Shown piece by piece: positions 1-50,035 of a DNA stretch of 64,000 bases. The notes beneath the pieces are model-generated. The model was not told the origin of the DNA, did not search any database, and worked only from the letters and a program-made list of their open reading frames with translations. The stretch is from Loxodes magnus (lineage: Eukaryota > Ciliophora > Karyorelictea > Loxodida > Loxodidae): positions 62,001-126,000 of the forward strand of contig CAMPDV010000189.1 in the NCBI GenBank assembly GCA_946699065.1. The letters run 5' to 3'. Both the position numbers and the translations under genes were made by a program. Numbering within the stretch: the stretch's first letter is position 1; each line of letters begins with the position of its first letter.

Positions 1-521
1 TTTACTTAGCATTTAATTTTGTTTGTCATATAATTATTAATTCTTTTAATAGCTAAAATTTGTTAATATTTTTTTAGTATCTCTTCAATCATAAATAAAG
101 TATTAGATATCTTATTTATTCTAAAATTTAAGGTAACGTTTATAATACGGAACATAACTTATTTTAATTATATTAGTTAAAAAATAATTTAAAGATATTG
201 TATAGCATCAAGAAATTTTACATATTTCCATACTAAAATTTAGAGCCTTAAATTTTCTTCTACAGTTAATCCATATCTTTCTTATTTTTTCAAATACAAT
301 TTAAAAATTTAATCAGTTTTAATAAATTTGCCTAAAGAAATTTTGTTTTTCTTTTATTAAATAATTTTTTTCGGCGTTTTAAAACTTCTGAGATGGAAAA
401 AACTTATTTTTAATTTAATATTTTTACTTAATAAATTTCTCTATTAAATTACTGCGAAAATAACATGCTGAAAAAAATAATTGATATTAAAGTATTAGTC
501 TGAAATTTTTCAAAAAAATTT

Positions 522-577
522 TATTCCGTCCCAAAATTTTCCTGTAGTGTAAAACGCTGAGCAAAAAAACAAAATTA
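522..577 (+). repeat. ~55-bp interspersed motif, copy A1
   Basis: Contains the shared core AAAACGCTGAGC followed by an A-run and preceded by a variant of TCCGTCC and TGTAGTG. It separates two blocks of unrelated A+T-rich sequence. See the finding on cassette order. Confidence 0.8.
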
Positions 578-780
578 AAATTTTTACACATTATCTATGT
601 TTACATTTACAATATTTTTGGAGTTTTAAAATCTAAGTCCTTACTTTGTATCAATGCATTCAAATTTAAGTCCATCTACAACTTTACAAGTTTATCCTTT
701 AAAAATCAAAAATTTTTTACTTAACCGATTTTTTTACACTTTTATAAATTCAATCTTATTTCAAAATTTTTAAAAAATTT

Positions 781-832
781 TAGTCCATCCGAAAAATGTC
801 TTGTAGTGTAAAACGCTGAGCAAAAAAACAAA
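781..832 (+). repeat. ~55-bp interspersed motif, copy A2
   Basis: Same core AAAACGCTGAGC with the upstream TAGTCCATCCGAAAAATGTC block; 240 bp after copy A1. Confidence 0.8.
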
Positions 833-1247
833 TTTAAATTTTTGGCATTTTATTATACATTTATTAATTTATAAAAAAAAATTAAAACTTTTAAAATATA
901 TCCCTGTTCTTATTTATATCGAAAAATAATTTTATTCAGATTCAAAAAATTAAAATTTTTTCTTAAAAATATTTTTTTTGAATTAAAATTTTCCCTTTCA
1001 CTAATATGTTCAACTCTCAAAAAAATTCCTTTTTAAATTTTCAAACTTTTTTTAAATTCAAAATAAAAAAATAACCAAAACGTTGTAAAAAAATATTCCT
1101 TTTATTAAAAAAAATCGAAATTTTTAAACTTTTTTTAAAAAAAATTTTAAAATTCCTTTAATTCAAAAATTTTATCACTTCTATCTTTTAACACCTTTTA
1201 AACTTTTTATACCCTTTTCAAACCTTTTGTCCCGTTTTGCAAAAATT

Positions 1248-1300
1248 TAGTCCATTCAAAAAAATGTCTTATAGTGCAAAACGCTGAGCAAAAAAACAAA
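1248..1300 (+). repeat. ~55-bp interspersed motif, copy A3
   Basis: Same core with the upstream block TAGTCCATTC and TGTCTTATAGTG; about 468 bp after copy A2. Confidence 0.8.
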
Positions 1301-2059
1301 TTTTTTATTTTCCCAAAAAAAGACACTCAAATATCAATCTTATCACACTAATTAAATACAAAATTAAAAATTTAATTAACTTAATTTAACTACACCTTCT
1401 ATTTAATTCACCCATAAACTCCTAAAAAATTTATAAATTAAATATTGCCACAGAAATTTTTACAATATAAAAACTTTTATACTAAAAAATTTTATAACAG
1501 ATACTTTTATACCATAAAACTTTTATAACAGAAAAAAATTATAACAGAAAATTTTATAATTAAAAAATTATTACTTTTAAAATTTTCCATATGCTTTCTT
1601 CCTCTTTTAATAAAAAATATTAAAAATTCAAATGCTTTTATTTATTTTAATTTTTATACTCTTTAATTTATTCAACCCTCTCTCTACTCACAAAACACTA
1701 TTCCCAATCTTTATTATAAACAATTATAAACATTCCACTATTCTTAAAATAATTATCCTTTTAAAATACTTAACTAATAACGTAATTACTCTTTTAGATT
1801 AAAAAAAATCATTAACACATTCAATTCTTTATTTAGTAAATACTTATACCCTCTTTTACACAAATTTAATCATAATCCAAATTACATACTCTTGTCTTAC
1901 ACCTCAACAATTTAAACAAAAACTTATATCATTATAATTTATTATTATAAAATATTTATTCAACTACATTGCTACATTATTGCTTAGAGTTGTAACTCAG
2001 CTTTAGTATACCTTAAATTTATTATCATTGCTGTTTAACCGTATAATATCATTGTTATT

Positions 2060-2160
2060 TTTATATATGAGTATAACTGTATAACTGTATAATAAAATTA
2101 TAGATTAGTATTATAACAATATAACAATATAGCTATATAATAGTATATAGTAGTATATTG
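2060..2160. repeat. Unexpanded 8-bp satellite seed (TAACTGTA type)
   Basis: Only two or three TAACTGTA-like units followed by irregular ATATAACAAT repeats. It occupies the position where copy B carries more than 1 kb of the same 8-bp unit, just downstream of the WD40 gene. Confidence 0.6.
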
Positions 2161-2236
2161 ATTATTCAAATACTTAAGCTCATTAATCTAAATAAATATA
2201 TTAATTTAATAAGTTCATTAATTTAATAAAAACATC

Positions 2237-4957
2237 TCATCTCATAATTCTCTTCAAGTCCTACTCACTCATCTATATGTTGCTTACTTCACAATCACTC
2301 AATCTCATTCCATAGGGAACATATACCTCATTCCAATCCAACTACTTTATTATTAAATTTATTAAATTGACACCTACCTATCCCACAGATTCATCAGCAC
2401 TTAACAACCTCTATACATTCCATCTTCTCAAGCTACCACCTTCATCCCCAGAATAGATCCATCTCGAATCTCTTGATAATGCCAAGGAACATATTGGATA
2501 ATTATGACCATTCAAAGTTAATACACACTAACCAGCTGAAAAAGACCATATCTTTATGGTTGAGTCATCAGATGCTGATATGATATATCTAGAGTCCAAG
2601 GAGATTACTACCGAAGAAATAGAAAAAGTATGTCCCTCTAAAGTTCTCAGGAGAGTACCATTAGAGAAATTTCAGATCTTTATGGTTGAGTCATTTGATG
2701 CTGATATTATATATCTAGAGTCATTGGAGATTACTACCTAGGTAATAGAAGAAGTATGTCCCTCTAAAGTTTTAACACATGAACTAGATAAAAAATCCCA
2801 AAATGAACTTTATAACTTTCATATCTTAATAGTTTTATCTCATGATGCTGATATGATATATCTAGAGTCATAGGAGATTACTACCGATCTAACATAATCA
2901 GTATGTCCCTCTAAAGTTCTCAGGAGAGTACCATCAGGGAAATTTCAGATCTTTATGGTTTTGTCATCAGATGCTGATATGATATATCTAGAGTCATAGG
3001 AGATTACTACCGAGTTAATATAAGAAGTATGTCCCTCTAAAGTTATCAGGAGAGTACCATCAGGGAAATTCCAGATCTTTATTGAGTTTTCAGGAAATCC
3101 TGATGCTGATACTATATAACTAGAGTCATAGGAGATTACTACCGATCTAATAGAAGCATTATGTCCCTCTAAAGTTTTCAGGAGAGTACCATCAGGGAAA
3201 TTTCAGATCTTTATGGTTGAGTCATCAGATGCTGATATGATATATCTAGAGTCAAAGGAGATTACTACCGAAGAAATAGAATCAGCATGTCCCTCTAAAG
3301 TATTGATTAAAGCAGATGATTAATAATCTCAGATCTTAATTGTATTATCATCTGAACCAGTGATGATATATTGATTGTCAGGAGAGATAGCTATTGAGCT
3401 GATGCATCTGGAATGACCTTCGAGTTCATGAGGATACTCAGTTGCTATATCGGAAAGATCAGCATTACTCAATACACAACCGATAAACTTAGTGTTTCTT
3501 AAATTACATTGATGGAAACTTGAATTGGAGAAATCACATTCAGTAAATGTCATGTCCGATAGATCTGCTTACACTAATCTCATGTTGGAGAAATTTTATT
3601 ATGATGCAAACTTAACATTCAGGTAGTTAAGTATCGTTATCACATTCGATGATACCTACGATACTTCCTATGATTTCCTAGATAACTCTAACACCTAATT
3701 TAATTTATTAGCCAGTTATAAGTTAGATACCCTAGATAACTATAATAAGATTTAGGTCTAAAGGGTTAAGCTTGAGTGATTTAAAGAAGATTACTTCAAA
3801 TATTAGATATCGATACTTTGTTATTGTATTAGTTGATCTAAGATTTGAATTAACTATTCGAACGTTAAGGTATTGAAATTCACTAAGGCTTATTTTATCA
3901 AGTTAGGTTATTCTTAAAGTTATTGAACTTATTAGTTCTATTACTCTAACTAAAGTTCAATAATATATCGAAGTAACTGATATTCTTTTCTTTATAGAGT
4001 ACTTGAAACTTCTTGGCATATTTTAAATTGAGATTAGTCTTTTTACATTAGTTACTCTTAAACTTATTACTTGTCTTAACTTTAGTGTCTTAGGGAGACT
4101 TAGTCTTAATATAAGTATTATAATTATTGGCTTTGTTATATTTCTTATTATTGAAGATCATAAACTTGTTATTGCTGAAACTACTATTATTATTATTGAC
4201 CTTAACATAAACCTTTTATAACATTTTATTGGCTGAAATAAGATTCTATTAACTAACTGGCTTTTTAATAAGTTAATATCTAACCCTATGAATGATCTCT
4301 CAGAAAATTGAAGACATTTAAGAGATAATACTGAATATTGTATCGCAAACCTTAATCATTCAAATTTAAATTAGATTCATTTTTCAAAAAATTGATTTCT
4401 CTTAGTATATCCGTAAATTATTACTATTATTCTTATAGCTAATACTGATTTACCTGCTGGTGTATATGCTAGCGCTGTTACTATTATTATTAAATGCTGA
4501 GTTCCGATAATCGATTCAGTAAACTCTTGATCTTATTCACTCTTTAAGTATATTATTCTATCAAGATCTTAAATATTCATTTAATTACTTACTAGCAGAT
4601 ATTATTCCACTACTAACTAATACCATTGATAACATCTCTTATAAACTATAGCTGCTCTTATTTCTAATTCTATTATTCCTATAACCAATCGAATTATTGA
4701 TTTAACCATACTTAATTCAATATTTGATGGTGCTGATGCAACTAAGGTTATATTGATTATTGTACCATATAGTTTTGTAGATCCTAAGGACTTATAATAA
4801 AAGTTTGCTGGTGATTTATACAATATACCATTCTCGTAAGCTGATATATGGCACTTAGACAGTTGAAACATTAAACACAGTTGCAAGGAAGTTGCTTGGC
4901 TTAAAATTAACCTTAATCGAAAGCATTTCTACAGTTAGGACACTGTTACATATCCAT
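2237..4957 (-). CDS. Zinc finger - Gln-rich coiled coil - pentapeptide repeat - WD40 protein (copy A)
   Basis: 906 codons in one unbroken frame from ATG at 4957 to TGA at 2239-2237, if TAA/TAG=Gln and TGA=Trp. Residues about 6-50 form a RING/B-box-like cluster (CPNC, LPCNC, CFNC, CINH). About 60-450 is Gln-rich and probably coiled coil. About 455-500 are pentapeptide repeats (ADLSD, CDFSN, CNLRN, NADLS). From about 505, eight WD40 units follow (LEGHT...SVVIS.DSRYIISAS.D.TIKI). Seven internal TGA codons lie in frame, at 4579, 3331, 3205, 2947, 2842, 2821 and 2674 (first base). Six of these fit Trp in the WD units: five at KI-W and one at SAS-W-D. The stop context RIM(R/S)-TGA is conserved in all three copies. 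The function is unknown; the family architecture suggests a ligand- or partner-binding scaffold, possibly with ubiquitin-ligase activity. The near-identical WD units suggest ongoing repeat exchange. Confidence 0.85.
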
Positions 4958-5129
4958 TTATAAAAAATAAAATTAGTTTTAGTATTTAGAAACTAATTAC
5001 AATGAAATAAAAATTAAAATATTTAAAATTTAATTATTAAATTTAATTTATTAATAAAATGCAAACTAATAAAGATTAATTTCTCTTAAAAAATGAGGAA
5101 AAAGAGATGGTTTATACCCAAAATAAAGG

Positions 5130-5619
5130 GGGCCAAATCACAAAAGATGGGCTCTCCTATCAAAAATTCGAAAAGAGATAATAACTTTAGGTAAGAGACA
5201 CTGAATCTCCAATCACCGAGACAAAGCCCAGTGTCGTTATTTATTGTATCTACCTCAGGATTGGGTAATTTACGCGCCTGCTGCCTTCCTTAGATGTGGT
5301 CTCTCAGGCTCCAGAATTGGACCCTAATTCTCCGTTACCCATCACTACCATACTAATCCAATACCATCGAAAACTGGTAGGGCAGAAACTTGAATGACCT
5401 GCCATGCTTCATGGTCCTTGTGTATTATAATTCCCACACAAACTAAATATCTAATAAACATTTTGTATGCATTCTAGAATTACTACATTCATCTAACACA
5501 CCATCAAATAAACTATCACTGCTTTAATGAACCATTCGCAGTTCCACAAGTAAATGCTTACACTTACATGACTTAGTCTTTGAGACAAACATATGACTAT
5601 TGGCAGGATCAACCAGATT
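5130..5619 (-). rRNA. 18S rRNA, 5' fragment (~490 nt), copy A
   Basis: The reverse strand begins with a version of the universal 5' end (CTGGTTGATCCTGCCA) and continues through ACTGCGAATGG and AAGGCAGCAGGCGCG to the region just before the 530 loop, where similarity fades into the WD40-gene flank. The remainder of this 18S is absent, so it is a truncated array unit. It follows the 28S on the minus strand after a 0.8-kb spacer, as expected for tandem rDNA. Confidence 0.85.
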
Positions 5620-6402
5620 TATACTTTTCTATTTTCATCCACTTTTTCTATATACTCCTTTCCTCCCCCTTCATTTATGTTTCATAAAACTACCCTTCAA
5701 ATATCCATACTACAGTACACCTTTTACCCCTACTTGTCTTAAAAAATATACGCTAAACCACCACTATAGGCATCAAGATCTTTTTACTTTCTTAGCCATC
5801 CTTCATTTCTTATATATGCATTTCTCAATTTTTAGATTCACGCCTTTGTCACACATAACTCATTCATTAAGCACATCATTTTAAGCTTATAAGTCTCTTT
5901 TCTACTTTTTATCTACTTATATTGAATCATCTTTTCTCAAACGGAAGCATTTAAAGTGCTTAATACTTAAGTATCATCATCTTCGTTCCATTCTTCATCT
6001 ATCAAAACTTTTTCTTTTGCTTTCTCTTTTTTCAAATTTTCATTAATTTGAAATTTTCACTTCCTTTAGAGTCCAAGAAATCTTCTTATTAATGCTTTTT
6101 ACTACTCTTTTCATTCTTTTATCTCTATCCTTCTTCTACTGATTAGCACTTAAAAATTCATCTCTTCTTCATCATCATTAAATAGTCAAGTGTCAATACC
6201 TTTTCAAGTTGGGTCTTTAGCATCTTTTATTTCAAATTTTAAAAAATTTGAAATTATGTACTTTAATAATCAAAGTAAGTTAAAGTAAGTAAAACCCCAG
6301 CAGAGATAGTAATGAGAATCTCGATGTAAAACCCTAGATAGATGATACAAAGATAAGTAACTAAAGGAAAGACTAGGTACTACTCGGTACAACTAGGTAC
6401 GA
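5620..6402 (-). other. rDNA intergenic/external spacer, copy A
   Basis: Pyrimidine-rich spacer between the truncated 28S and the next 18S start. It contains paired AAATTTTCA/TGAAATTT-type inverted repeats near 6035-6060 and 6230-6250, and three ACTAGGTAC-like units (6371-6403) exactly at the 28S break. No separate promoter could be identified. Confidence 0.6.
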
Positions 6403-6845
6403 CTATGAGCGGTTTCTGTCCGTTCTGAACTGGCCGTAGGACACCTGTGTTATCTTTTAACAGATGTGCCGCCCCAGCCAAACTCCCCACCTAAAGGTTT
6501 CTCCCACCCAACTACATTGCTAGAAAGTTACTGTATGACAGGATAAGTAAAGTGATATTAGTAGTAGTATTTCAAGATCGCGGCTTCCTACTTATTCTAC
6601 GCTTCCTATGCCACTCTACACTCCAGACTAGAATAAAACTCAACAGAGTCTTCTTTCCCTGCTGATTATGTCAAGTCCGTTCCCTTGGCAGTGGTTTCGC
6701 TAGGTAGTAGATAGGGACAGTAGGAATCTCGTTAATCCATTCATGCACGTCACTAATTAGATGACGAAGGCATTTGGTTACCTTAAGAGAGTCATAGTTA
6801 CTCCCACCATTTGCACGCGCTTCGTTGAATCTCATCACCTTGACT

Positions 6846-6876
<31 letters not shown>

Positions 6877-8632
6877 TAACAGATCACCTTCACAATGCTT
6901 TGTTTTAATTAAAAAGTCGGATTCCTCCTGCCACTCCAGTTCTGAGGTGGCCATTCGCCGCAGGGCCGACCACTTTCGGTCATGGCGACAAAACTCCCAC
7001 TTCCATGAAAATTAAGTTACACAATCCCTCCAGTGGAGATTTCTGCCTGGCCCTCAGAGCCAATCTTTCTCCCGAAGTTAGAGATCTAATTTACCGACTT
7101 CCCTTACCTACATTATCATATTGAATAGAGGCTGCTAACCTTGGAGACCTGCTGCGGTACTGGAACGAATTCTCCTACATATTACATGCCGCAAGTTTCA
7201 TGGATCGTAGTTGGTGCTCCAGACAACACATGCAGTTTACTACTCTTCCATACATCACGCCTCCCTCGCCGTAATGGATCCAGGCGCACATGTATGTTAG
7301 ACAGAAAAGACAACTCTCCCCAGGATCAACCCTGACATATTGCGACATATTGTGTCACCACTATGTAGTAAGTACCTATGGAATATTAACCATATTCCCT
7401 TTCCCTCATAAGGTTAGGATCGGGTGATTCATGATCCAGTGCGGTTCTCATGAAAACCTTCTCCACTTCAGTCTTCCAAGTTGGCATTGGAATACTTGCT
7501 ACTACCACCAAGATCTGCACTAATACCTGCTCCATAACTCTTCACAGAATTACCTCCATGCAGATACTACACCCTCCTACACCAGAGTGCAGAGTATGGG
7601 ACACGCCTTTCGCAATTTCCATTTTCAGGGCTAGTCCATTCGGTAGGTGAGTTGTTACACACTGCTTAGCGGGTTCTGACTTCCATGGCCACCATTCTAC
7701 TGTCTAAATGGACTAACACCCTTACTTGCAGACGGGTTCTTTCGCCTTAACTCCATTTCAGGTTGGGCCTCATCGACAGTTCTGCTTACCAGGATTGTTC
7801 CACTAGGGACATTTATGTCATGTCACGTTCATTTATGAAACGTTACTGAACCCATTTAAAGTTTGATAATAGGAGGAAGAAGTTACTTCTCTCGAACCTC
7901 TATTCATTGGCTTTACCGGATACCACGAAAAGTTCCAGCTATCCTGAGGGAAACTTCAGAGGGAACCAACTAATAGATGTTTCGATGAGTCTTCGCCCCT
8001 ATACTCAGGTCCATAGAGCGATTTGCACGTCAGCACCTACACGAACCTCCACCAGAATTTCCCCTGGCTTCGTCCTGCCCAATCACTTTCATTTCACCTA
8101 CATATTTACTTGCACAGACTCGCGATATAGCTAGATTCCTTGGACTGTGTTTCAAGACGGGACGATCTGTCCACTATATCCTTGCAATACTTCTTTTCAA
8201 AGCTTTGCTCAGATTTATTGTAGACGCACAGCTTCCTCTCCAACTATTTCAGGTCTTTTAACTCTCTTTCCAAAGTACTTTTCACTTTTCCCTCACGGTA
8301 CTTGTGCACTATTGAACTCTGGACGTATTTAGCCTTACGAGGAGTTTACCTCGCACTTTGGACAGCAATCTCAAGCTGTCCGACTCTTAGATAGTTTGGT
8401 TTTCAATCTAATTGAACCTCACGGGGTTATCACCCTCTATGACGTGTCATTCTTGACCACTTAGGTCCAATCAAACCTACACCATTCCTCCCTAACTTAG
8501 ATAATTCCGAAGATTTACAATTGGGCTTTGACCACTTCACTCGCTGTTACTAAGGCCATCCTTGTTAGTTTCTTTTCCTCCGCTTATTTATATGCTTAAG
8601 TTCAGCGGGTTATCTTACTCCCCTCAAATCAC
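6403..8632 (-). rRNA. 28S (LSU) rRNA, 3'-truncated, copy A
   Basis: The 5' end is recognised at 8632 (ACCCGCTGAACTTAAGC on the minus strand). The gene can be followed to the conserved GGGGAGTTTGGCTGGGGCGG stretch and a little beyond, then stops at about 6403 in ACTAGGTAC repeats. The usual last ~700 nt, which carry the peptidyl-transferase centre and sarcin-ricin loop, are not here or elsewhere in the window. Copy A also lacks about 70 nt near 8085 that copy B retains, so it is probably a pseudogene. A split LSU rRNA with its 3' piece elsewhere is the alternative. Confidence 0.85.
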
Positions 8633-8699
8633 AAATACATATACTCAGTTTTTCACTTGGTAAGAGAATTCTTATTCACTTACATTTGTATTTTATATT
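8633..8699 (-). other. ITS2, copy A
   Basis: About 67 nt between 5.8S and 28S, very short for a eukaryote and nearly identical in copy B. Confidence 0.6.
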
Positions 8700-8847
8700 A
8701 TACTGAAAGGAACATACCTTGAATTTCCCCAAGGTGCCTGTTGCGTTGGGAAACCTGATGTCTCACGAAATCCTGCAGTTAGCATTGAATTTCGTGCTTC
8801 GCTGCGTCCTTCATCGACGCCAGAGCTTAGGCATCTATTGTTGGGGA
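8700..8847 (-). rRNA. 5.8S rRNA, copy A
   Basis: The minus strand contains the diagnostic GATGAAGGACGCAGCGAA motif and is flanked by short spacers between 18S and 28S. The boundaries are estimated from typical length (~150 nt). The sequence is noticeably diverged from common ciliate 5.8S, but the same divergence is present in copy B. Confidence 0.85.
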
Positions 8848-8939
8848 TTTTGTTTTGTTTAGGTTTATATATTTGATAAAATGAAAAGCAGCATAAAGCT
8901 GTAAATAAATTTGATTTTTGTAATGTTTGATATTAATAT
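8848..8939 (-). other. ITS1, copy A
   Basis: About 92 A+T-rich nt between the 18S 3' end and 5.8S, matched in copy B. Confidence 0.6.
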
Positions 8940-9070
8940 TAATGATCCATCCGCAGGTTCACCTACGGATATCTTGTTACGACTTCTCCTTCCTCTAAGT
9001 GATAAGGTTCACTTAACTTCCCATTAGTCCGAGAGGTTCACCTGATCACTCGAAATCGGTAGGAGCGGCA

Positions 9071-9102
<32 letters not shown>

Positions 9103-9713
9103 GTGCAAGCTGATGACTTGCGCTTACTAGGAATTCCTAGATGATGACCAAGAATTGCAAGGGTCAATCCCAACTACGACGCAGTTACGAGTTTGCCGGA
9201 GTAGCTATACTTAGGAATTTATTGGCTGCGTCAGTATAGCGTGCGTGCGGCCCAGGACATCTAAGGGTATCACAGATTTGTTATTGCCTCACACTTCTTC
9301 CAACTAAAAGCTGGAAGTTCCTCTAAAAAGACAACTTCCTCGGATAGAAAGAGTCTATTTAGCAAATTGAGGTCCCGTTCGTTATCAGAATTAACCAGAC
9401 AGATCACTCCACTAACTAAGAACGGCCATGAACCACCACCCATAGAATCAAGAAAGAGTTCTCAATCTGTCAATCCTTACTATGTCTGGATCTGGTAAGT
9501 TTCCCCGTGTTGAGTCAAATTAAGCCGCAGGTTCCACTCCTTGTGGTGCCCTTCCGTAAATTCCTTTAAGTTTCAGTCTTGCAACCATACTCTCTCCAGA
9601 AACCAAAGACTTTGATTTCTCGGAAGGTGCCAAGGAGATTTATACGGTCTCCCCGATTCCTAGTCGGCATAGTTTATGGTTAAGACTAGGATGGTATCTG
9701 ATCGTCTTGGATC
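8940..9713 (-). rRNA. 18S rRNA, 3' part, copy A
   Basis: The 3' end is GGTGAACCTGCGGATGGATC at 8940. Conserved elements TTGTACACACCGCC-like, GAAACTTAAAGGAATT and GATCAGATACC are readable back to 9713, where the sequence breaks abruptly at the duplication boundary. Copy B continues about 240 nt further. Confidence 0.9.
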
Positions 9714-10245
9714 CCTAAACTCAAAAACTTAAATTTTTATATTATTTTTTTTTATAAAACTGGAGAATAAGTTAAATTTAGCAGTTAAGCAAAAATAGTT
9801 AATTTTTACATAGTTCTGATTTTTACATTCTAATAAATAAGATATCTAGTTATTTAGCAATAAATAAGTTAATTCTCTAAAATTTTATAATCTCTTTACT
9901 ATTTTATTATGTGATTACAGTTTTTTAGTTAAAAACTAATTGAGAATTAGATTATTTCTATTTTGTTAAACTTAATTAAATTTTACACTTTTCAAAACTA
10001 TTTTAATTTCTCATAAAATATACCAAATAATCCTTTTTATATTATTCTCTTTAATTAATTAATAATATGTTTTTTTAATTAATAGTAGAACCTTTATTTT
10101 ATAATTTCAATAGTGCCATTTTTTTAGTACTTGATAAATTCAATTTTATTTACTTATTTAAGAGTTTTCATCTTTTTATCTATAATCAACTGTTTCGTAG
10201 ATTAGCTAGGATTATATTATCTAAGTTTCTAACATTTAGAAAATA
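9714..10245. other. A+T-rich spacer, no gene seen
   Basis: Starts at the duplication breakpoint in 18S. Very A+T-rich, with no readable gene, RNA or clear repeat. Confidence 0.5.
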
Positions 10246-10246: not shown

Positions 10247-11525
10247 ATGAGATTGCTAAGGGTGGCTTTAGAGTTTTTTGAAAAGCTTTACTGAAGGAAG
10301 AACATTAATAGCGATAAAGAGTTTTACAATTAAAGTTTATCTTAGGCAGCTAAGAAAGAGATGGAATAGCAGCTATCAATACCTAAAAGATGCATCATCC
10401 TAATAGTATCTTTATATGAGTACTGTCCTTAGCTGCTGTGTTTGGTATTGGAATATCTGCCTTACAATTTATACTAGCTTATATAAAATAAGCAATATAT
10501 ATCATAGAAAATCAGATATAACATAAGCTTGGATATCGTGATATGTCTAGAGTGTATTATCGAGAAAAATATTATTCACAGAGATCTTAAGAGTAATAAC
10601 ATATTACTAGACAATAATTTAAGAGCTAAAATAACAGGTTTTAATTTGTCGAAAGTGAGAATGGAAACTCAATCTTTCGAATCAAAAACTTAGATAGGCA
10701 ACATTCGTTGGATAGCTCCTGAATTGATGTGCTTAAAGCCTAAATACAGAAATAACCAGATATTTTTGCTTTGGGAGTCATTTTTTGGGAAATTGCAACT
10801 AATTAAGCGTCCTATTAAGAAACTGATAACTTATCTATAAGAGAGGATATAAAAGCTGGAGATAGAGAAAAAATTCCTGAGGAATTGCCTCAGGATTATA
10901 AGATTTTATTTTAAAAATTTTGGACTTAAAATTCAAATGAGAGAACAAGTCGTGAAACTGTATAAAGCTTACTATTGAGTAGCTTAGAAAAAATCTAAAA
11001 ATAAACCCCAAAATAAGATCCATAAGTAATGAAAAGTTCAACTAAAATGGAAAATTTGAGAATTCCTGCATTAAAGGAAATCAAGGCTTTCACTTAACCT
11101 TTATTAATTATTAACTTGCATAAAAATAAAGTAAAGGTAAATATTTATCTTTTAGGCTAAACTTTGATGGGACACTAGGGAGGAGTTTGATCTGTAGTGA
11201 TATCTGGTGACTAGAAATTAATTGTATCGGCTAGTTACGATATAAACTTAAAAATATGAGAGTTTCTTGCTGTAACTTGTAAGAGAATTTTGATGGGACA
11301 CTAGAATTTAGTTTTATCCATAAATCCAGCGATCTTCATCGTATAATTTTCTCCTCATTTCCATAGTTGGCCTATCTTTTATTAAATTCTTTTTGAGTAT
11401 ATCTACTAGCAGCTTCTTCACCAAACTAGCTCATTAAAAGCCAGAATCTTATCTATGCAGTACATATTTATGCTCAGAAGATAGAAGAATAATCTTAATT
11501 ACTACTTCAGATTCTTCAAAGGTAA
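10247..11525 (+). pseudogene. Protein kinase-WD40 fusion, frameshifted
   Basis: Kinase motifs in order: a glycine-loop remnant (EIAKGGFRVF) at ~10250, beta-3 IAIK at ~10310, hinge LVLEYLPYNLY, intact HRDLKSNN at ~10573, GFN in place of DFG at ~10635, IRWIAPE, and a C-lobe from PDIFALGVIFWEI. The frame shifts near 10288, near 10340 and at ~10757 by one base. From the C-lobe the frame runs open into two WD40 units (LMGHQGGV-TGA-SVVIS, NLKI-TGA-EF), where both TGAs (11188, 11257) fit Trp. TAA/TAG read as Gln. The layout resembles tyrosine-kinase-like proteins. Three shifts plus loss of DFG indicate a decayed gene, though a pseudokinase cannot be ruled out. Confidence 0.65.
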
Positions 11526-12997: not shown

Positions 12998-13139
12998 TGG
13001 AAATTTGATAATGATAGGATGATGTAAGGGGTTTAGAATAAATTAGGTTAGTATAAATATTAATTGAGCAAATGAAAAAGATGTCCCTTACATAAAGACT
13101 TTGGATGGATGGTAGTTTGTATTAATGGAGTAAGTGAAA

Positions 13140-15660
13140 ATAGATTGGAATTAGCGCATTGTAATATGAAATTAGAACTAAATAATTAAGCATTTAACAA
13201 TTTACAAATTATTACAATATTTATATTTTTTCTATCAATGAGACTTGGCAGTATCAAGACTTTGCTCCTATATAAATTAAAGGATATAGAAGTTTTTATA
13301 AAAACAATGATGAAACTGAAAGAGCTGGTGGAGTTTGGTTGATTGTTAAAGATGCTGATTGGAGACAAATAGAGGATTTTATTTAATAAGATGATAGGTT
13401 TCTACTAGTAAAAATAAAGAATATTTATTTCACAACATGTTATATGCCAACAGATGAAAAACCTATATTAGTTAAAGAATAATCATATTCAAACTTAGAT
13501 CTTATTCTTAATGTAGTTGGAGACTATCCTATTATATTAATGGGAGATTTGAATGCTCTTTTATAAGGTTATGGAAGTAATAATAGACATAACTTATAAG
13601 ATAATGCTTAAAGATTACAAACATTGATTGAAGAATATGATTTACAAATAATAAACGATTAAAGTTTTGATACTTTTAGAAGTAGAGCAAATTATAAAAC
13701 TTATTTCAATTATTATATTATACCTAACTATCACATTAACATTAACCAATTCCCCTATTTCTCTACAAACCACTGCACTTCATACAGATCAATATTCCTA
13801 AAATTCACTACTTCAAATATCAATACAAATCCTCCAATTCTTGCTCCTAGAGTCTATTTCAACATTTATAACTTTTAGAATTTAGCTATACCAGAACAAT
13901 ATAAAGCTAAATTTGAAGGATGCTTAAATTATTTTTAACTAATAGAAGAACAAAATTTAGAAACTTAATATCAGTATATTCTGCTAACTTTTAATCCTAA
14001 TTGCCTTTTACTACTAGACCTACTAAATAACTATACTATCTTACAGGATTATTAATTCTTTAAATGAAAATTCAAGGTTAAATAAGCCTAAGAAGATAGA
14101 GAAATAATGAACTAATCATCTTCTAAAATGTTTTAATAGCAAGAAAAATTCTAAGCCCAAGAATTAGAAACAATATGTATATGGATTCTGAAATTTTTTC
14201 TTAAGTTGTAAATAACTGAGAAGATAATGCTTTTAATAAGCATTCAACATTGATGTCGAAGAGATAAAGAACTGTAGCATAAAGCTTCTTATTAGTAAGA
14301 ATTTAGTTTAATAAGTTTAAAAGAAGTTAAATAAATCATCAGGAAATTGGCAATTTATAAAGCATCAGGAGCAAATGATATCAAAGCCGAACTCTTCAAA
14401 TACGCTAGTAATGAATTTTATGAAGTATTTTAAAGATTTATGAATTATATGTTAAGAAAATTAATAATTCCATACTAGCTCAAATAAGTAAGAATCATTC
14501 CAGTTTATAAAAAAGGATCAAGGAGAATTGAAAGAACTGGAGACCTAGTGTGGTTATAAATATTATCCTCAAAAATATGATAAAATAATAACTTAGAGAA
14601 TTTTTGGATACATTTATGAGAGTAAGATCATACACCTTTCAGAGCAAGAATTTTCAAAGAAGAGATAAACATTACATCAAGTTTGAACTATATAATCAAA
14701 TGTTGACTTACACAGAAGATGAGAAAGAGGAAATATCTTCTAGCTACTCTTATAGATGTAGAAAAAATGTACGATAACATTAACAGAGATTTGCTGTTTG
14801 GAAATTTATATAGAATTAAGTTTCCTCTTGCACTAATAAATTATCTCGAATCATTCTAGTCTCATCTAGAATTTAGATTTATTTTAGACGGAATATTATC
14901 AAGAAATTTAAATTATAGCAATGGGATTTTGCAAGGAAATTCACATAATCCAGTTCTTACCATTATCTTCTATGGCATTGTAATCTTATATTAAAAGCTT
15001 AAAAAAACTTGGATTTATAATTTTTGTACGTTTATTTTTTTTCCAAAACTTAAGCAGATTAATTTTTATTACTGTCTAATAAAGATAATATGAGTTAATT
15101 AATTTAGTCTACATGTAAAGTATTTGATTGAGTTAAATTGACTATAAATGCTGAAAAATGTGAATATATCTGCTTTATAAGTAAGAACTAAAAATATGAA
15201 AATTAAATAAAACTATGATTCGAGAAATAATATCAATTTAAAAAATTAAGTACCTTTAGTTACAATTTTTAGTATTATTAGAAATAAAGGCTCTATTAAA
15301 TAAAACACTCTGAAATTTGCATTTGAGGAGAATAAGATACCTATTAGCATATTTCTTAGTGTGAAGGTCTGCAAGATTTAATAGAAGAATTTAATGATTT
15401 CAGGAATTGCAATTTAATTAAACCTATAACTTACAATCAAAATTACATTAATCTTAACTTCCCTACTAGAAGATAACTTTAATAAATAGTTTTAAGAATT
15501 AAATACTTTCATTAAAGTTTCTTTGCAGAAGAATTTAAATTTTATATCAAAATGACAATCAAGTGTAAGAATTATTGGAATAATAATTTTTCTAGTGAAC
15601 AAACAAAGAAGAAAATGATTAAAGAAAATTGAATAAAACTTATTTAGAAGGAAGTTGCAA
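13140..15660 (+). mobile_element. Non-LTR retrotransposon (LINE) ORF2, decayed; copy 1
   Basis: An APE-type endonuclease is readable from ~13201: INETW at 13231, GGVWLIV, TCYMPTDE and the metal-binding GDLNA at ~13545, with TAA/TAG as Gln. The reverse transcriptase follows in pieces: KASGANDIKAELFK (~14360), TLIDVEKMYDNI (~14745), NGILQGNSHNP (~14925). The expected YADD box near 15020 is not recognisable and several frame changes occur, so it is inactive. Endonuclease before RT in one polyprotein defines an APE-clade LINE. No target-site duplication was found. Confidence 0.75.
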
Positions 15661-16389: not shown

Positions 16390-19300
16390 AACTCAAACAA
16401 AAGTTCTGTGCAAATCTTTATAATGGAAGAAGAAAATAACGAGCAAATGCCATAAAAGGTAACTAGAATATGCAGCTCAAAACTGCTAAAAGGGTAGGAG
16501 TTATCTATTTCAGTAGGAAATACTGTAACCAAGTCTCAGGTTAGCAGAAATGTAAGAAGATGAAATCGTTCATGGTAAAAATATTGAAAGTGTGAAAATC
16601 CTAATGACAGGAATAATTATTATATGATTCAAAAATAAGGAAACAATCATACAATTCGGGAATAATCAAATATATAAGTGCTGAAATTTTGTAATACTAA
16701 CAGATTAGAAATATAGAAAAAATCTACAACATCAAGAAATATCAGATTCATTGAACATTTAACATGTATTCAAGTTTGAACCAGGTGGAGACACAACTGG
16801 AGCAGTACATGAAAATAGTATGTACAGAAATTGGAACTGTAAAGGCATAACGTGAGCCAATGGGAAAATGAAAACGTATTTAGAATTGAAGAAAATCAAA
16901 GTTGAAAAAAGTGGACCAGATAAGTTAGACCAAGGAGGTATAAGCTCTTACTTGAGTCATCCATCAATTGGAAAATATACGAAATGTAGCATAGAACAAA
17001 TTAATGCAAAGAAAAAAATTATTAAAGGAAGCAATTAAAATTGCTAAGAAAGTACAAATCAGGTTGATGCATTCGTAAATCAGAAATAAAATGTCTTACT
17101 ATTAAAAGAAAAAGATAGCGAAGTAAAAGAAAGTGAAGAATAACGAAGAATAACGAAGAGGATTAGCCTTCAAATAAAATATCACTTTGAATTTCCAGCT
17201 AAAACAGCAAGTTTGAGCCATACTAAAGTTACTTTAAAGCAGATCGAATTTAATAGATACTCAACAACAAAATTAAATGAATAAAAACTGAGACAAAACG
17301 ATCAATGTCACATAAAAACACTTTGTAAAACAGGAAACAAGGAAAAACCAAACTGAAACAACTAGAAAATAATAACAGGAAGTAAGTGAGCATAAATTCA
17401 ACGCTGTCTAAAAATAGATAGAAAATAAAATATAATGGGAAGAAAGATAGTATCGTGTAATAAAATTTAAGACATAATTATAGGAAAAATAATAAACATT
17501 AGAACGATTTGGTTTTCACGTTTTTAAAGAAGAGGAAGCTAAAAATGTAGAGCTGGAGAACTAAAAAAAAGAGGAAGTACAAGGAAATACTAATATAATA
17601 AAATAAGCAGAATTAAGCATAGGCACAGCAAATGCCAGAGTAATAAAATCTAACAAGGAAGAATTAATCAAGTTTATGTGCAAAAAGAAGATAGATATTA
17701 TGGCGATGTAAGAAATATTTGTGGATCAAACTGCTGAAATGCCTTTCGTATATGGCTTCAGAGTAATAATTAAATTGGGCACAAAGCACAGCAAAAGAGT
17801 AGCATTTTATAGAAAAGATAAAATTACTAGCAAAACCAAGTTATTGGATATAGCGAATATCAATCAAACAGAGTTATTTTAGGGGGAAAGATTAATAGAT
17901 TTAACGCTTGATGATTGACTGGCATTAATAAACGTATACGCGTCTATAACATCCGACTATGATTAACTAATACCCTTTTATGAAAGTATAAAATAATACA
18001 TAATAGCAACTAACAGCAAAGAATAAAAAATTTTAATATTAGGGGATTTTAATGCGCATATTCACATCATTTTTTACAGTAAGAGCAGAATAATGCAGGC
18101 TAATACTTACTTAACTTGGTGAGATATTATCATTTAGAATGAAAGATCCAATCTTCATCACAACATAAAGGAAAGGAAATTTCAAATTAGATTACTTCTT
18201 AACGGATTAATATATCACGCTAACATTATCAGCACAAAATTTTATCTATAGATACCAATAGGAGTTATTAGCCAGAATAAAAAAGATAAAAGAAAAGGAA
18301 GAATATTTAAAAAGCCCATAAATTAAAAGGATAAACTTTCAAAAATTAAAGCAATAAAAGGTTCAAGAAATTCAAAGAATGATTCGAGAAAACAGATCTT
18401 AGCAAATTCGAAAATTTAGATAGCGAAGCATATTATGATAAATGATCAGAATAAATCCAAGAGCGACTAAAAGTGATTGATGGCTTTTAACAAATAAATG
18501 AGAAAATACTAAATATACCAAAAACTATAAAACTAAAAAAATACTTCTAATAGAAGGCTAAATAAGTAAAATATCTAATTAGATAAAGATGCTAAGAAAT
18601 TAATAATAATATTAAAGTGAGATAAGAAGTAAGGAGAAACTTTAGACTGCATAAAATAAAAGATAGGAAAAATAAATTAAATATCTTCCTGATTAAATTA
18701 ATTAAGGAAACCTAAGAAAAACTTGAAAGGGAATATAAAAATAATTAAAGTAGAGAAAGCGTGCACCATGGACATTAATAAACGAAATGGATCTGCGGAA
18801 TTTAAAGAAAGATAAGAGGAGCTCTATAAAAGTGGTAGCAACAGATTACCAGATTTATATAAGAATATATAAACAATATAGGTTCAAAAAGAAAATTCAG
18901 TGTACTACTTAAAAAGCTCTCCTAATGAAAAGCTGTAGATCCCGATAGAATATAAATAGGAAAAATAAGAGCTGGTGGGGATAAGATTGTTAGCCTAACC
19001 CCAATATTAACATAAAAATAATAAATCTGGCATTATGCCAAGCAAAATTAAAGAATTTTTTATTATATTATTTCATAAAAAGGCAGAGCGGAAGACCCTA
19101 TTAATTATAGGCCGATTTTACTTTTAAATTGTATAGTAAAAATCATAGATCTCTGATTATTTGGACAAAATAAACTCAGATTTGAGTGAGTGTGACGATG
19201 AGTTATAATATGACTTCAAGCTAGGTAAATAATGTTCATAGAAAATCTTCAATCTAAGAACTACAATGATTTATGCAAATAATAAAGAGACAGTAGTAAT

Positions 19301-20900: not shown

Positions 20901-21394
20901 GAACTAACTAGAGAGAAAAAAATGCATTAAGAATAGTTGGAATATTTAGCAAAACAAAAATTGAATTAAATCTGAGGAAAATTAAATAAAGATTCACAAA
21001 CAGCAAAGAAGCAGAAAGACAATAAAAAATTAAGTAAAAATGGAACTCGAGCAAGAATGATGTCATTGCAAAAAGGCTTAATGCTAGATTTGAACTGGAT
21101 AAGCAATAATGGAATTAATGGAAGAATAACTGAAAATCAAGAAAAATCAAGAATGTACGTTTAAAAAAGAGACAATGTCAAACTTTACCTAAAGTTTAAT
21201 AATAGACGCATGGCAAACCTAATAATGGTAGAATCACATTAATTTAACATTATTATTATAAACAAACCTTTTGAAGATCTCTACTATCAATTTGAAATTA
21301 TTAAAAATTTTAAATTTAATAATTAAATTTTAAATATATTTATTTTTATTTCATTGTAATTAGTTTCAATATAATAAAGCAAATTTTTTTCCAA

Positions 21395-23550
21395 ATGGAT
21401 ATGTAACAGTGTCTTAACTGTAGAAATGATTTCGATTAAGGTTAGTTTTAACCTAAATAACTTTCTTGCAACTTTTTTTTATGTTTCAACTGACTAAGTG
21501 CCATATATCAGCCTACGAGAATGATCGTATGTAGGAATCATCATCAAAGCTTTATTATTAGTCTTTAGGATTTACAAAAATATATGGTACAATAACCAAT
21601 ATAACCTTAGTTTTCTCAACAGTAACAAGCATTGGACTAAATATGGTTAAATCAATAAGTTGATTGGTTATAGGAGTAGCAAGTTTAGAAATAAGATAAG
21701 CTATAGTCCATAAGGAATACTATCAATGGGACTAGTTAGTAATAGAACTATATCTGTCAGTAAGCAATTAATGAATATTCAAGATCTTGATAGAATAATA
21801 TTAAAAAATAATAAATAAAATTAAAAGTTTATTGAATCGTTTATCGTAACTAGACATTTAATAATAGTAATAACGCTAGCAGATAAATCAACAAAATCAG
21901 AATTGTAAGAATATTAATAGCAATTCACAGATATATTAAGAGAAATCAATGAGATGAAGGAAGAATCTGATATTAATTTGAATGATTAAAGTTTGCGATA
22001 TAATATTTAACAATATCTCTTAAATGCCTTCAATTTTCTGAGAGATCGTTCATAGGGTTAGCTATTGACCTAATAAAAAGCCAAGTAGTTAATAGAATCT
22101 TATTTCAGCCAATAAAATGTTATAAAAGATTTATGTTAAGGTCAATAATAAAATTTGTCCAATTATTGGATCTTCAAAAATAAGAAATATAAGAAAACTA
22201 ATAGAATTAATTCTTCTTCCAAGGTTAATGTTTTTAAGACACTAAAAATTAGACAAGTAATAAAGTCATAAGTAACAAATTTAAAAAGAGATATATCAGT
22301 TAAATTAAATAAAGAAGCTTCTAGTATTGTTTAAAGTAAAGATTAAAAGCTACTTCAATATATCATAAACTTTAAATTAAGTTTAGATCTTATAAATTGA
22401 ATAACTTTGAGAACAACCTAGCTTGAAAAAGCAAATCTTTATAAACTTTAATAACCTTACGTACAATTAGTTAAATCAAATCTTAAACCAACTACAATAA
22501 CAATCTAATATCGATATTTAAGCTTTGAAGTAATCTCCTTTAAATCACTAAAGCTTAGCACTTTCAACATCAGTCTTATTATAATTATCTTAAGGATTAA
22601 AACAAATCTTGCTTATAAATTAAATTAAGTGTTAGAGTTATCAAAAAAATCATAAGAAGTATCGTAGGTATCATCAAATGTGATAACGATACTAAACTAC
22701 ATGAATTTGTAGTTTGCTTAACAAAATTTTGTTAACGTGAGATTAGTTCAAGAAGATTTATCGGACATGACATTTACTAACTGTGACTTCACCAATTCAA
22801 GTTTCCATCCATGTAATTTACGAAATACGAAGTTCACCCTGTACATTAAGCAATACTAATCTATCTAATATTACAGCTGAGTATCCTCATATACTATATG
22901 GTCATACTTAATGCATCAACTCAATCACATTTTCTCCTGACATTCAATTCATCATCGCTGGTTCATGGGATAAAACAATTAAGATTTGAAATTATTAAAT
23001 ATCTACCCTTATCAAAACTCTGCAAGGTCACATTTCTATTGTTACCTTGGTAGTTATCTGCCCAGACTCTAACTATATCATATCAGCATCTAGGGATTCA
23101 ACGATTAAGATAAGAAAGCTTTAAAGTTCTTTTGGGGATTCCCTAACTACTCCATATGTTAAAACTTTAGCAGATCACTCATCTTCAGTTAGATCTGTAG
23201 TTATCTCATTAGACTCTAACTATATTGTATCAGCATCTCGAGAAAAAACTATAAAGATCTGGTCTTTCTCAACTGGTTAGTGTGTATTAACTCTTAGTGG
23301 TAATAGATTTTCAATATGATAGGATTGAAGATGAATCTATTCTGGAGATGGTATTGGTGAATTGAGAAGATGAAATATCTAGAGGTTAATGTATTCTAAT
23401 CTATCTGGTTAATAGGTAATTAATAATTAATAATTTTTATAATTAAGTAGCTGGATTGAAATGGTTTGTATGGTGATTATGGATTGAGATTGAGAAATTG
23501 CCTAACTGATAATGTTTAGTGAGTTGAATAAGAAGAGAATTATGAGTTGA
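21395..23550 (+). pseudogene. Zinc finger-coiled coil-pentapeptide-WD40 gene, decayed copy C
   Basis: Starts like copies A and B (MDMQQC) at 21395 and ends in the same SELNKKRIMS-TGA context at 23548. The span is not a multiple of three and several indels shift the frame, for example one missing A near 21765 and another near 21930. A zinc-ligand Cys codon (TGT) has become TGA at ~21490. The coiled coil, the pentapeptides (DLSDMTFTNCDF) and about four WD units remain, including GSWDKTIKI-TGA-NYQ at ~22965, again TGA at the Trp site. Fewer WD units than A (8) or B (7). Most likely a pseudogene. Confidence 0.7.
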
Positions 23551-24471
23551 GTTACTTATAAATTAATAAAATGAATAATATTAAAAATGGAAATAATGAT
23601 ATACTACTATGTTATTATGTTACTATGCTATCATGCTACTATTTTATTATATTACTATTTTAAACTAATATTATACTAATGTACTACTATACTAATATAT
23701 GATATACTATTATACTACTATATGATATACTACTTTACTACTATATTACTTCATTACTATACTACTATATTGTAATATTGCTAAATTAATAAGTTAATAT
23801 GTAGTTATGTTTATATAATAGTATTTATATTTCTTAATATTTACAACTTTTAATAATTATATGTGGGGATGCTTGATAATTATATTTTGGGATAAAATTA
23901 TATTTAAGGAAAAGGTAGTAAATAATTAGAAAATTAAACATTAAAAAAATGGGTTAATTATTTAGGAATTTAGAAAGGACTATTAATTATGTAATTAAGT
24001 GATTTGTAATTTAAAAGTAGTATAAGATTGCTAAAGAATAATCAATTCAACTTAGTTTCAGATATTGAGATAGTTTTTGCGACGAGATTAAGGAGGTCAT
24101 AAATAAAGAGTGTAGAAATGATAGCAAAATAATTTAGAAAGTTATGAAACATTTATTAATTAAAAGAAAAGTAAAGAGTAAAGTATAAAATAATTAATAA
24201 AGTTTTTAAATATTTTTAATTATAAAAGTTTCTGTTATAAAAGTTCTGCTATAAAAGTTTCAGCTATAAAAGTTTCTGGTATAAAAGTTTATTTTTTAAG
24301 ATTTTATTTTTTAAGATTTTAAATTTTAAATTATTTTAAATGTAAAAGCGTTTATAATTTTGTTTTGCTTAATTATGTTTTATTTTTAAATGTAAATTTT
24401 TTTTAATTTATTTACATTTACATTTATTTAATTTAATTTTTATTAGAGTAAAAATATTTGAAAATAAAAAT

Positions 24472-36742: not shown

Positions 36743-36815
36743 GGGGATCTAGCTCAAATGCTAGAGCGCTCCTTTCGCATACGAGAGGCAACGGGATCGA
36801 TACCCGTGTTCTCCA
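36743..36815 (+). tRNA. tRNA-Ala (anticodon CGC)
   Basis: 73-nt cloverleaf: acceptor GGGGATC/GTTCTCC with discriminator A, D-arm TAGCTCAAATGCTAGAGC, anticodon loop TTCGCAT, T-arm CGGGATCGATACCCG. Followed by TTTTT, a Pol III terminator. Two blemishes: one acceptor T-T mismatch and a C-C mismatch in the anticodon stem. CCA is not encoded. Confidence 0.85.
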
Positions 36816-36888: not shown

Positions 36889-36961
36889 TAAGCTTTAGCT
36901 CAGTCGGTAGAGCGCCACCCTTTTAAGCTGGTGGTCAAGGGTTCAAGACCCTTAGTCGGCG
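36889..36961 (+). tRNA. tRNA-Lys-like (anticodon TTT), acceptor stem damaged
   Basis: D-arm TAGCTCAGTCGGTAGAGC, anticodon loop CTTTTAA, T-arm AGGGTTCAAGACCCT and 3' acceptor strand AGTCGGC+G are typical of tRNA-Lys. The 5' acceptor strand (TAAGCTT) pairs at only about three of seven positions, and the anticodon stem has a C-C mismatch. Ends in TTTTT. Probably a pseudogene, 73 bp after the tRNA-Ala. Confidence 0.7.
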
Positions 36962-39324: not shown

Positions 39325-39835
39325 TTACCATTTCATTTTGTTTCTCATATCATTATTTCATTTTTTAATCAATCAATGTTTTTTAATATCTCTTCAATCA
39401 TAAATAAAGTATTAAATATCTTATTTATTCTCAAAATAACCTATACCATTATCATTTATATTTAATCAAAAATATTACTTATTTTAAATATATTAGTTAA
39501 ACTATTATTTAAAACATATTCTTTAGTATCAACTAATTTTACTACTTTCCATACTTCAACTATTTAGACTCTTCAATTTATACAGTTAGTATCTTTCTTA
39601 TTTTATTCAAATACTATTAAAAAATTATAATCAATCATTAATTTGCCTTAAGATATTTTGCTTTTTCTTTTATTAAAAATTCTTTTTCTGCTTTTTAAAA
39701 CTTATGAGATAGAAAAAGTTTATTTTTACTTTAATATTTTCGCTTAATAAATTTCTCTATTAAATTACTGCGAAAATAACATGCTGAAAAAAATAATTGA
39801 TATTAAAGTATTAGTCCGAAATTTTTCAAAAAAAT

Positions 39836-39890
39836 TTATTCCGTCCAAAAATTTTCCTGTAGTGTAAAACGCTGAGCAAAAAAACAAAAT
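39836..39890 (+). repeat. ~55-bp interspersed motif, copy B1
   Basis: Core AAAACGCTGAGC with upstream TCCGTCC and TGTAGTG, matching A1. Confidence 0.8.
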
Positions 39891-40335: not shown

Positions 40336-40390
40336 TAGTCCATCCAAAAAAATGTCTTATAGTGCAAAACGCTGAGCAAAAAACAAAATT
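40336..40390 (+). repeat. ~55-bp interspersed motif, copy B2
   Basis: Core CAAAACGCTGAGC with TGTCTTATAGTG, of the A3 type; 500 bp after B1. Confidence 0.8.
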
Positions 40391-43127: not shown

Positions 43128-45722
43128 TCATCTCATACTTCTATTCAAGTCCTACTCACTCATCTATATGTTGCTTATTTCACAATCACTCAATCTCATT
43201 CCATAGGGAACATATACACTATTCCAATCCAACTACTTTATTATTAAATTAATTAAATTGACACCTACCTATCCCACAGATTCATCAACACTTAACAACC
43301 TCTATACATTCCATCTTCTCAAGTAGCCACCTTAATCTCCAGAATAGATCCATCTTGAATCCTTTGATAATGCCAAGGACCATATTGCATATTTGCGACC
43401 ACTCAAAGTTAATACACACTAACCAGCTGAAAAAGACCATATCTTTATGGTTGAGTCAGCAGAGGCTGATATGATATATCTAGAGTCAAAGGAGATTACT
43501 ACCGAGGTAACAATAGAAGCATGTCCCTCTAAAGTTCTCAGGAAAGTACCATTAGAGAAATTTCAGATCTTTATGGTTTAGTCTTCAGAGGCTGATATGA
43601 TATATCTAGAGTCAGAGGAGATTACTACCGAGTTAATAGGACCAGTATGTCCCTCTAAAGTTTTAACACATGAACTAGATAAAAAATCCCAAAATGAACT
43701 TTATAACTTTCATATCTTAATAGTTTTGTCATCAGATGCTGATATGATATATCTAGAGTCATAGGAGATTACTACCGAAGTAACAGAAAAAGTATGTCCC
43801 TCTAAAGTTATCAGGAGAGTACCATCAGGGAAATTCCAGATCTTTATTGAGTTTTCAGGAAATCCTGATGCTGATATGATATATCTAGAGTCAAAGGAGA
43901 TTACTACCGAGGTAACAATAGAAGCATGTCCCTCTAAAGTTCTCAGGAGAGTACCATCACGGAAATTTCAGATCTTTATGGTTGTGTCAGATGATGCTGA
44001 TACTATATATCTAGAGTCAGAGGAGATTACTACCGAGTTAACAGAAGAAGTATGTCCGGATAAAGTATTGATTAAGGCAGATGCTTAATAATCTCAGATC
44101 TTAATCGTTTCATCATTTGAACCAGTGATAATATATTGATTGTCTGGAGAGATAGCTATTGATCTGATGCATCTGGAATGACCTCTAAGTTCATGAGGAT
44201 ACTCAGTTGCTATATCGGAAAGATCAGCATTACTCAATACACAACCGATAAACTTTGTGTTTCTTAAATTACATTGATGGAAACTTGAATTAGAGAAATC
44301 ACATTCAGTAAATATTGTGTCCGATAGATCTGCTTGCACTAATCTCATGCTGGAGAAATTTTATTATGATGCAAACTTAACATTCAGGTAGTTAAGTATC
44401 GTTATCACATTCGATGATACCTACGATACTTCCTATGATGTTCTAGATAACTCTAACACCTAATTTAATTTATCAGCCAGTTATTAATTAGATACCCTAG
44501 ATAATTATAATAAAACTGAGGTCTAAAGGGTTAAGCTTGAGTGATTTAAAGGATGATACTTCAAATATTAGATATCGATACTTTGTTGTTGTTGTAATTG
44601 GTTTAAGATTTAAATTAACTATTCGAATGTTAAGTTATTGAATTTCACTAAGGCTTATTTTATCAAATTTGGCTGCTCTTACAATTATTGAACTTAAAAG
44701 TTCTATTACTCTAACTAAAGTTCAATAATATGTTGAAGTAACTGCTATTCCTTACTTAAAGCAGTATTTGAAACTTCTTGGTATATTTTAAACTGAGATT
44801 AGTCTTTTTACATTAGTTACTCTTAAACTTATTACTTGTCTTAGCTTTAGTGTCTTAGGGAGGCTTAGTCTTAATATAAGTATTATAATTATTGATTTTG
44901 TTATATACCTTATTATTGAAGATCATAAACTTGTTCTTGTTGGGACAACTTTTATTATTATTGACCTTGACATAGACCACTTATTACATTTTATTAACTG
45001 AAATAAGATTCTATTAACTAACAAGCTTTTTACTGAGTTAATATCTAACCCTATGAATGATCTCTCAGAAAATTGAAGACATTTAAGAGATAATACTGAA
45101 TATTATATCGCAAACCTTAATTACTCAAATTCATATTCGATTCTTACTTTATCACATTGATTTCTCTTAGTATATCCGTAAATTACTACTATTATTCTTA
45201 TAGCTAATACTGATTTGCCTGCTGGTGGATATGCTAGCGCTATTACTATTATTATTGAATATTGAGTTCCGATAATCGATTCAGTAAACTCTTAATCTTA
45301 TTCACTCTTTAAGTATATTATTCTATCAAGATCTTGAATATTCATTTTATTACCTACTAGCAGATATTATTCCACTACTAACTAACGCCATTAATAACAT
45401 TTCTTATAAACTATAGCTACTCTTATTTCTAATTCTATTACTCCTATAACCAATCGAGCTATTGATTTAACCATACTTAATCCAATGCTTGATGGTACTG
45501 AGGCAACTAAGGCTATATTGGTTATTGTACCATGTAGTTTTGTAGATCCTAAGGAATTATAATAAAAGTTTGCTGGTGATATCTACATACGACCATTCCC
45601 GTAATCTAGAATACTGTATTTAAGCAGTTGAAACATGAAACGCAGTTGCAAGGAAGATGCTTGGCTTAAAACTAACCTTAATCGAAAGCATTTCTACAGT
45701 TAGGACACTGTTACATATCCAT
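43128..45722 (-). CDS. Zinc finger - Gln-rich coiled coil - pentapeptide repeat - WD40 protein (copy B)
   Basis: 864 codons in one frame from ATG at 45722 to TGA at 43130-43128. Same domain order as copy A; zinc ligands are kept (CPNC, LPCNC, CFNC, CRYH in place of CINH). It has seven WD units instead of eight, and the 126-nt size difference equals one 42-residue unit. As in A, internal TGAs sit at KI-W and the repeats keep SVVIS and DSRYI almost unchanged. Residues just after GH vary (TSSVN, ASIVT, TFSVT, TGPIN), as does the residue after SAS. No frameshift seen, so it is probably functional. The 5' flank joins the 18S fragment as in A. Confidence 0.85.

Positions 45723-50000: not shown

Positions 50001-50035
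<35 letters not shown>

Follow-up and report, generated by a model that had tools for sequence, protein, structure and literature searches.

The stretch of DNA analyzed here (the window, 64,000 nucleotides, C189:62001-126000 of a 705,730,643-base assembly) is almost certainly nuclear DNA of a karyorelict ciliate, very probably Loxodes magnus (MAC), and, judged from the sequence, uses the ambiguous genetic code of NCBI table 27. In this code TAA and TAG would encode Gln and an internal TGA would encode Trp; the same TGA codon would be read as stop at gene ends. The code has already been published for karyorelicts, very probably for this genome as well, and nothing is added to it here. The analysis has two uses: i) starting from raw genomic DNA, it confirms independently that TAA, TAG and TGA all serve as sense codons in a karyorelict nuclear genome; and ii) it illustrates how ordinary gene calling fails on DNA of this kind.

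The WD40 gene, its copies and their surroundings

A WD40 gene (copy A) occupies 2237..4957 on the minus strand and has 907 codons, the terminal TGA counted in. It runs from the ATG at 4957 to the TGA at 2237-2239, which is taken as its stop; copies B and C of the gene likewise have TGA at the corresponding position. The frame contains 63 TAA, 33 TAG, 22 CAA, 12 CAG, 9 TGG and 7 internal TGA codons. The claim of an earlier note on this DNA that all three stop codons are sense in the WD40 gene is thus upheld, and the kinase log-odds given below agree with it. The GC content is 30.7% in the coding sequence of A and falls to 13.3% over the 60 bases that follow its stop. The last 97 codons of A contain six TAG, no TAA and no internal TGA; copy B near its end has six TAG, and one TAA at 68 codons from the end. 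TAG is located 8 and 12 codons ahead of the terminal TGA in A and B. Read with the standard code, the window in its entirety offers a single stop-to-stop frame of at least 150 codons. The code had been put forward as the reason for such poor ORF calling, which is partly true, but much of the window consists of broken rDNA, LINE remnants and frameshifted copies. Gene finding by codon usage, with gene A as the seed, returned A, B and one repeat array, and nothing else.

The N-terminus of copy A has a possible RING-like start: zf-RING_2 matched with an E-value of 2 in A and 0.65 in B, and a TRIM32 RING matched with an E-value of 0.22, other matches being as weak. The middle of the protein is Gln-rich when all three stop codons are read as sense. 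Pentapeptide repeats (PF00805, E 7.4e-10) are also present. Residues 1-530 gave no match at E<=0.001 among 7979 scored candidates from a large protein collection. The earlier note had proposed searching WD40 and kinase profiles with the stop codons read as sense, and this search bore fruit: eight WD40 stretches were found in copy A (PF00400, 284 bits), and most TGAs of kinase domains fall in majority-Trp columns, as described below.

Five of the seven internal TGAs of copy A are at a conserved WD40 Trp, as assigned by repeat motif and by structure alignment: codons 543 (3329..3331), 585 (3203..3205), 671 (2945..2947), 713 (2819..2821) and 762 (2672..2674), all on the minus strand. TGG is found at the equivalent position, by repeat motif, at 3071..3073 and 2546..2548. 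The alternation of TGG and TGA at the DxTIKI-x position of successive repeats, noticed earlier, is therefore real, with five TGA and two TGG (3073, 2548) in the seven repeats of copy A, and it extends as claimed to copy B, which has four TGA and two TGG at the same position. The five IKI-TGA residues of copy A pair with Trp of solved WD40 propellers, e.g., 2ymu; the query for this alignment had W written at the TGAs, and the register was fixed by the flanking residues. The TGA at codon 706 (2840..2842, minus strand) is in the phrase SAS-x-DKT, which, with Trp at x, had been called a common WD40 phrase. The phrase exists (2842), and has TGG in copy C at 22963, but in another repeat than in A, and the residue opposite in the best solved-structure match, 2ymu, is Asp, not Trp. 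The remaining TGA, codon 127 (4577..4579, minus strand), is conserved in B and lies at no recognizable Trp site or known domain. Because WD40 repeats duplicate, the TGAs that they share cannot all be counted as independent events. TGA occurs seven times in the frame of copy A, compared with 26 and 36 times in the two remaining frames of that strand. The in-frame number is lower than the 15.9 expected from position-specific base composition (2000 shuffles, minimum 6).

Copy B (43128..45722, minus strand) has 865 codons with its terminal TGA, five of them internal TGAs, and lacks one 126-nt repeat unit relative to A. The two copies align over 861 codon pairs, of which 182 differ, without a frameshift. 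The only gap is that 126-nt WD40 unit; two further 3-nt gaps appear when gaps are charged at the lower cost applied to the flanks. The flanks, four stretches with 5509 aligned bases, have 337 substitutions and 31 indels, and 25 of the indels are not multiples of three. The dN/dS ratio between A and B is 0.29 (95% 0.14-0.64) before codon 127 and again 0.29 (95% 0.19-0.45) in codons 128-505, past the first TGA. For the gene as a whole it is 0.46 in frame, compared with 0.73 and 0.85 when the two alternative frames are read. The low ratio in codons 128-505, together with the alignment free of frameshifts, therefore shows a frame maintained past the first TGA, which argues that the TGAs are translated and are not pseudogene scars. 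Purifying selection is not visible in the WD40 half (codons 506-906), where dN/dS is 0.95 (0.59-1.72). Its absence there would agree with variable repeat surfaces, and is no proof of function. The WD40 units of A and B (codons 512-850) are near-identical, varying just after GH and around SASxD, a pattern that resembles repeat families with a variable recognition surface.

Two other loci carry in-frame TGAs. Copy C (21360..23640, plus strand) is a relic of gene A with many frameshifts. The substitution reported for it is present at RR-x-NI/NV, which has TGA in copy C (motif at 23365) and TGG in A and B, but not in its SAS phrase, where the codon is TGG. The kinase-WD40 gene (10295..11325, plus strand) is in pieces in two frames. 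The two TGAs reported there do exist, at 11188 in GV-x-SV and at 11257 in LKI-x, but the gene changes frame and is decayed. Tiny introns as a source of these frame changes (Loxodes introns have a mean of 19.3 bp and a mode of 17, according to PMC11441545) were ruled out at the 10735/10738 junction: one Pfam piece ends at 10735, the next starts at 10738, and no intron fits because the two adjoin in the profile. Further frame changes in this gene were spotted only by eye. To judge from their broken frames, both copy C and the kinase-WD40 gene are decayed, and alone prove little.

The surroundings of the gene are rich in broken elements. Rfam matched fragments of eukaryotic SSU, 5.8S and LSU rRNA in the window. 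Two broken rDNA copies, about 90-94% identical, lie on the minus strand at 5144-5616 plus 6482-9991 and at 45942-46407 plus 47354-51061; each consists of the 3' SSU part, ITS, 5.8S and a truncated LSU, and is followed by a separate 5' SSU piece adjoining the WD40 gene. These copies are probably relics because they have not been homogenized. The WD40 gene and rDNA relics are carried by a segmental duplication of about 10 kb (516-9716 and 39811-50660), and a dense tandem repeat array at 41775-43049 has long open frames on both strands. Pfam was scanned in six frames over six 5-kb blocks, and beyond these over the WD40 copies only. The scan picked up the kinase-WD40 gene, pieces of endonuclease and two weak matches (DUF6061, Adeno_E1B_19K). 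The LINE endonuclease PF14529 was found in two of the six blocks, with E-values of 5.4e-06 and 2.4e-05 that miss the curated cut-off, and RVT_1 had no match in these blocks. Degenerate LINE-type endonuclease pieces lie at ~13117-14400 and 17559-18200 (plus strand) and at ~54676-54978 (minus strand), and a reverse-transcriptase-like stretch was seen by eye only. ARAGORN found no tRNA in the window. Rfam gave two tRNA matches there, at 36743-36815 and 36892-36961, neither of them Trp by eye; they look like Ala(CGC) and Lys(UUU), have unpaired stem positions in each, and are absent from the ARAGORN output.

Codon meaning across the genome

The meaning of the three codons was examined in protein kinase domains from the whole assembly. 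The kinase search gave full or nearly full domains (136 of 5592 candidates scored), nearly all with in-frame stop codons. Of the best 70 of the 136, 63 were kept and aligned with every stop codon masked as X. These 63 domains contain 75 TGA, 104 TGG, 363 TAA and 179 TAG codons, and TGA is present in 43 of them. Columns with a Trp majority take 56 of the 75 TGAs and 77 of the 104 TGGs. The other 19 TGAs fall in columns with no majority (16), an Ile majority (2) or a Leu majority (1), and 27 TGGs likewise lie outside the Trp columns. Three columns have TGA/TGG counts of 21/34, 18/14 and 17/29; we take the first to be the kinase-fold DxW and the other two to be Trp residues of the C-lobe. Log-odds scores over the 63 domains assign TGA to Trp with 368 bits, followed by Phe with 31, all others being negative. 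In a stricter first pass, restricted to columns with at least 35 other residues, 37 TGAs scored 134.8 for Trp and 11.9 for Tyr. TAA scores 184 for Gln and 88 for Lys, and TAG scores 104.5 for Gln and 50.7 for Lys. For comparison, CAA scores 398 as Gln and TGG 606 as Trp.

A search of the genome with eRF1 domain 1 gave three matches. Two are genes on one contig (C196), of 436 codons each, with TAA and TAG in frame and TGA at the end; one of the proteins matches human eRF1 with an E-value of 8e-159. Of 18 TAA/TAG positions aligned with the human protein, eight are opposite Gln, which makes up 4.3% of human eRF1. The proposal that TAA and TAG encode Gln is supported by these eRF1 genes and by the kinase domains, where Gln scores best for both codons. 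The third match, on contig C2, has the best score of the three and contains TAA and TAG, with no TGA within the match. The motif positions of eRF1 that read GTASNIKS and YLCDNKF in the human protein bear on its choice of stop codons. The protein matched here has GRAQNIKS and FLCENTF in their place; both paralogues carry RAQNIKS and FLCENTF, the Q of RAQNIKS being encoded by TAA or TAG. A change in eRF1, which had been suggested as a check, is present in the form of this difference from the human motifs.

Could TGA be a stop codon throughout, with only TAA and TAG reassigned, and the WD40 copies be pseudogenes in which TGG has mutated to TGA? In favor of this, one transition turns TGG into TGA, both copy C and the kinase-WD40 gene contain frameshifts, relics of rDNA and LINEs crowd the window, and dN/dS is near 1 in the WD40 half of A and B. 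But A and B stay in frame past their TGAs, with purifying selection in codons 128-505. Furthermore, a model of random nonsense mutation places 4.5-23% of new TGAs at TGG codons, depending on the mutation rates tried, against the five of seven in copy A, not all independent, that are at a conserved Trp. TGA is also found in about two-thirds of the kinase domains, mostly in majority-Trp columns. Pseudogenes are accordingly a very improbable source of these TGAs. That TAA and TAG stand for Lys or Glu, a reassignment reported in other protists, is more improbable still. Lys does come second in the log-odds for both codons, but Gln is the best for both, TAA and TAG stand at Gln columns of eRF1, and differences between A and B at TAA go most often to TAG (6) and CAA (6), those at TAG to TAA (6) and CAG (3).

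The earlier note had left the choice between the karyorelict code and that of Condylostoma (table 28), in which TAA and TAG can terminate as well. Inside genes the two codes read identically. The ends of genes are where they part: TAG occurs within a dozen codons of the terminal TGA in A and B, and the terminator is TGA at all four gene ends examined (A, B and the two eRF1 genes). The LINE content of the window also agrees with Loxodes. On account of the TAG positions, the TGA-only ends (n=4) and the Loxodes-like content, table 27 appears to fit better than table 28, and it is the karyorelict half of the proposal that is supported; that the window follows the Condylostoma code is highly unlikely.

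TGA in WD40 arrays elsewhere in the genome

Large WD40 arrays are found on other contigs. From eleven stretches on nine of them (C1503, C620, C9, C272, C119, C1832, C6957, C4046 and C512; loci L009-L019), 257 distinct units were picked by motif. In these units TGA occurs at repeat positions 1 (43 units), 7 (84) and 9 (49), where TGG is never found, and once more at position 40. The conserved Trp codons, by contrast, are nearly always TGG, which is at position 19 in 255 of the 257 units and at position 32 in 247. The codon ends in A at position 7 in 256 units and at position 9 in 213, and the codons at these two positions switch among TCA, TTA, AGA, GTA, GGA and TGA. Because the codons end in A, TGA is one step, and TGG two, from TCA, TTA, AGA and GGA. 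Position 1 is unlike positions 7 and 9, its codons being TTT, TGT, TTG and TGA. Few independent events are represented because units within an array are near-copies. The WD40 units of the window differ from these arrays in that their TGA is usually at the conserved Trp; among eight further array loci, one TGA at the conserved Trp was seen in two (L003, L006).

It is possible, though rather unlikely, that the reading of TGA as Trp helps WD40 recognition repeats to diversify in this genome. If so, one base change would add a Trp to the surface, encoded by TGA and not by TGG, and the reassigned TGA would be used unlike its synonym TGG, as a diversity codon in a recognition-type family. The unequal use of TGA and TGG in large WD40 arrays may merit attention.

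Comparison with known codes

The code of the window shares with the Blastocrithidia code UGA as Trp and a sense meaning for all three stop codons. In that code, however, UAR is Glu and UAA also serves as stop, whereas here UAR scores as Gln and the genes examined end in TGA. The Condylostoma magnum code has the three sense readings in common with the window, but UAA and UAG are stops there too; here TAG is tolerated close to the stop, and the depletion of UAA and UAG near the end that goes with table 28 is not seen in genes A and B, the two looked at. In PMC4967479, translation is described as the default at these codons in Condylostoma and Parduczia, with termination imposed near transcript ends, and no tRNA-Trp(UCA) is reported to have been found in C. 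magnum.

The closest counterpart is table 27, as used by Parduczia sp. and Loxodes spp., from which no difference was found. The two have in common TAA and TAG as Gln, internal TGA as Trp, TGA as the only stop seen at the four gene ends examined, the presence of TAG but not TAA near the stop of gene A, and AT-rich 3' ends. Another trait of table 27 is a tRNA-Trp(CCA) with a 4-bp anticodon stem and no tRNA-Trp(UCA); in this genome tRNA-Trp had no match in searches run without a positive control. PMC11441545 attributes the Loxodes code to Swart 2016 and Seah 2022, and gives L. magnus assemblies of 706 Mbp (MAC) and 848 Mbp (MIC). According to the same source, PF14529 is abundant in L. magnus, a likeness to the window, where its matches are below the cut-off. 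It also states that UAA and UGA are depleted before the stop in L. magnus and UAG is not. This pattern agrees with genes A and B, two related genes, each with six TAG near the end and with no TAA in A and one in B.
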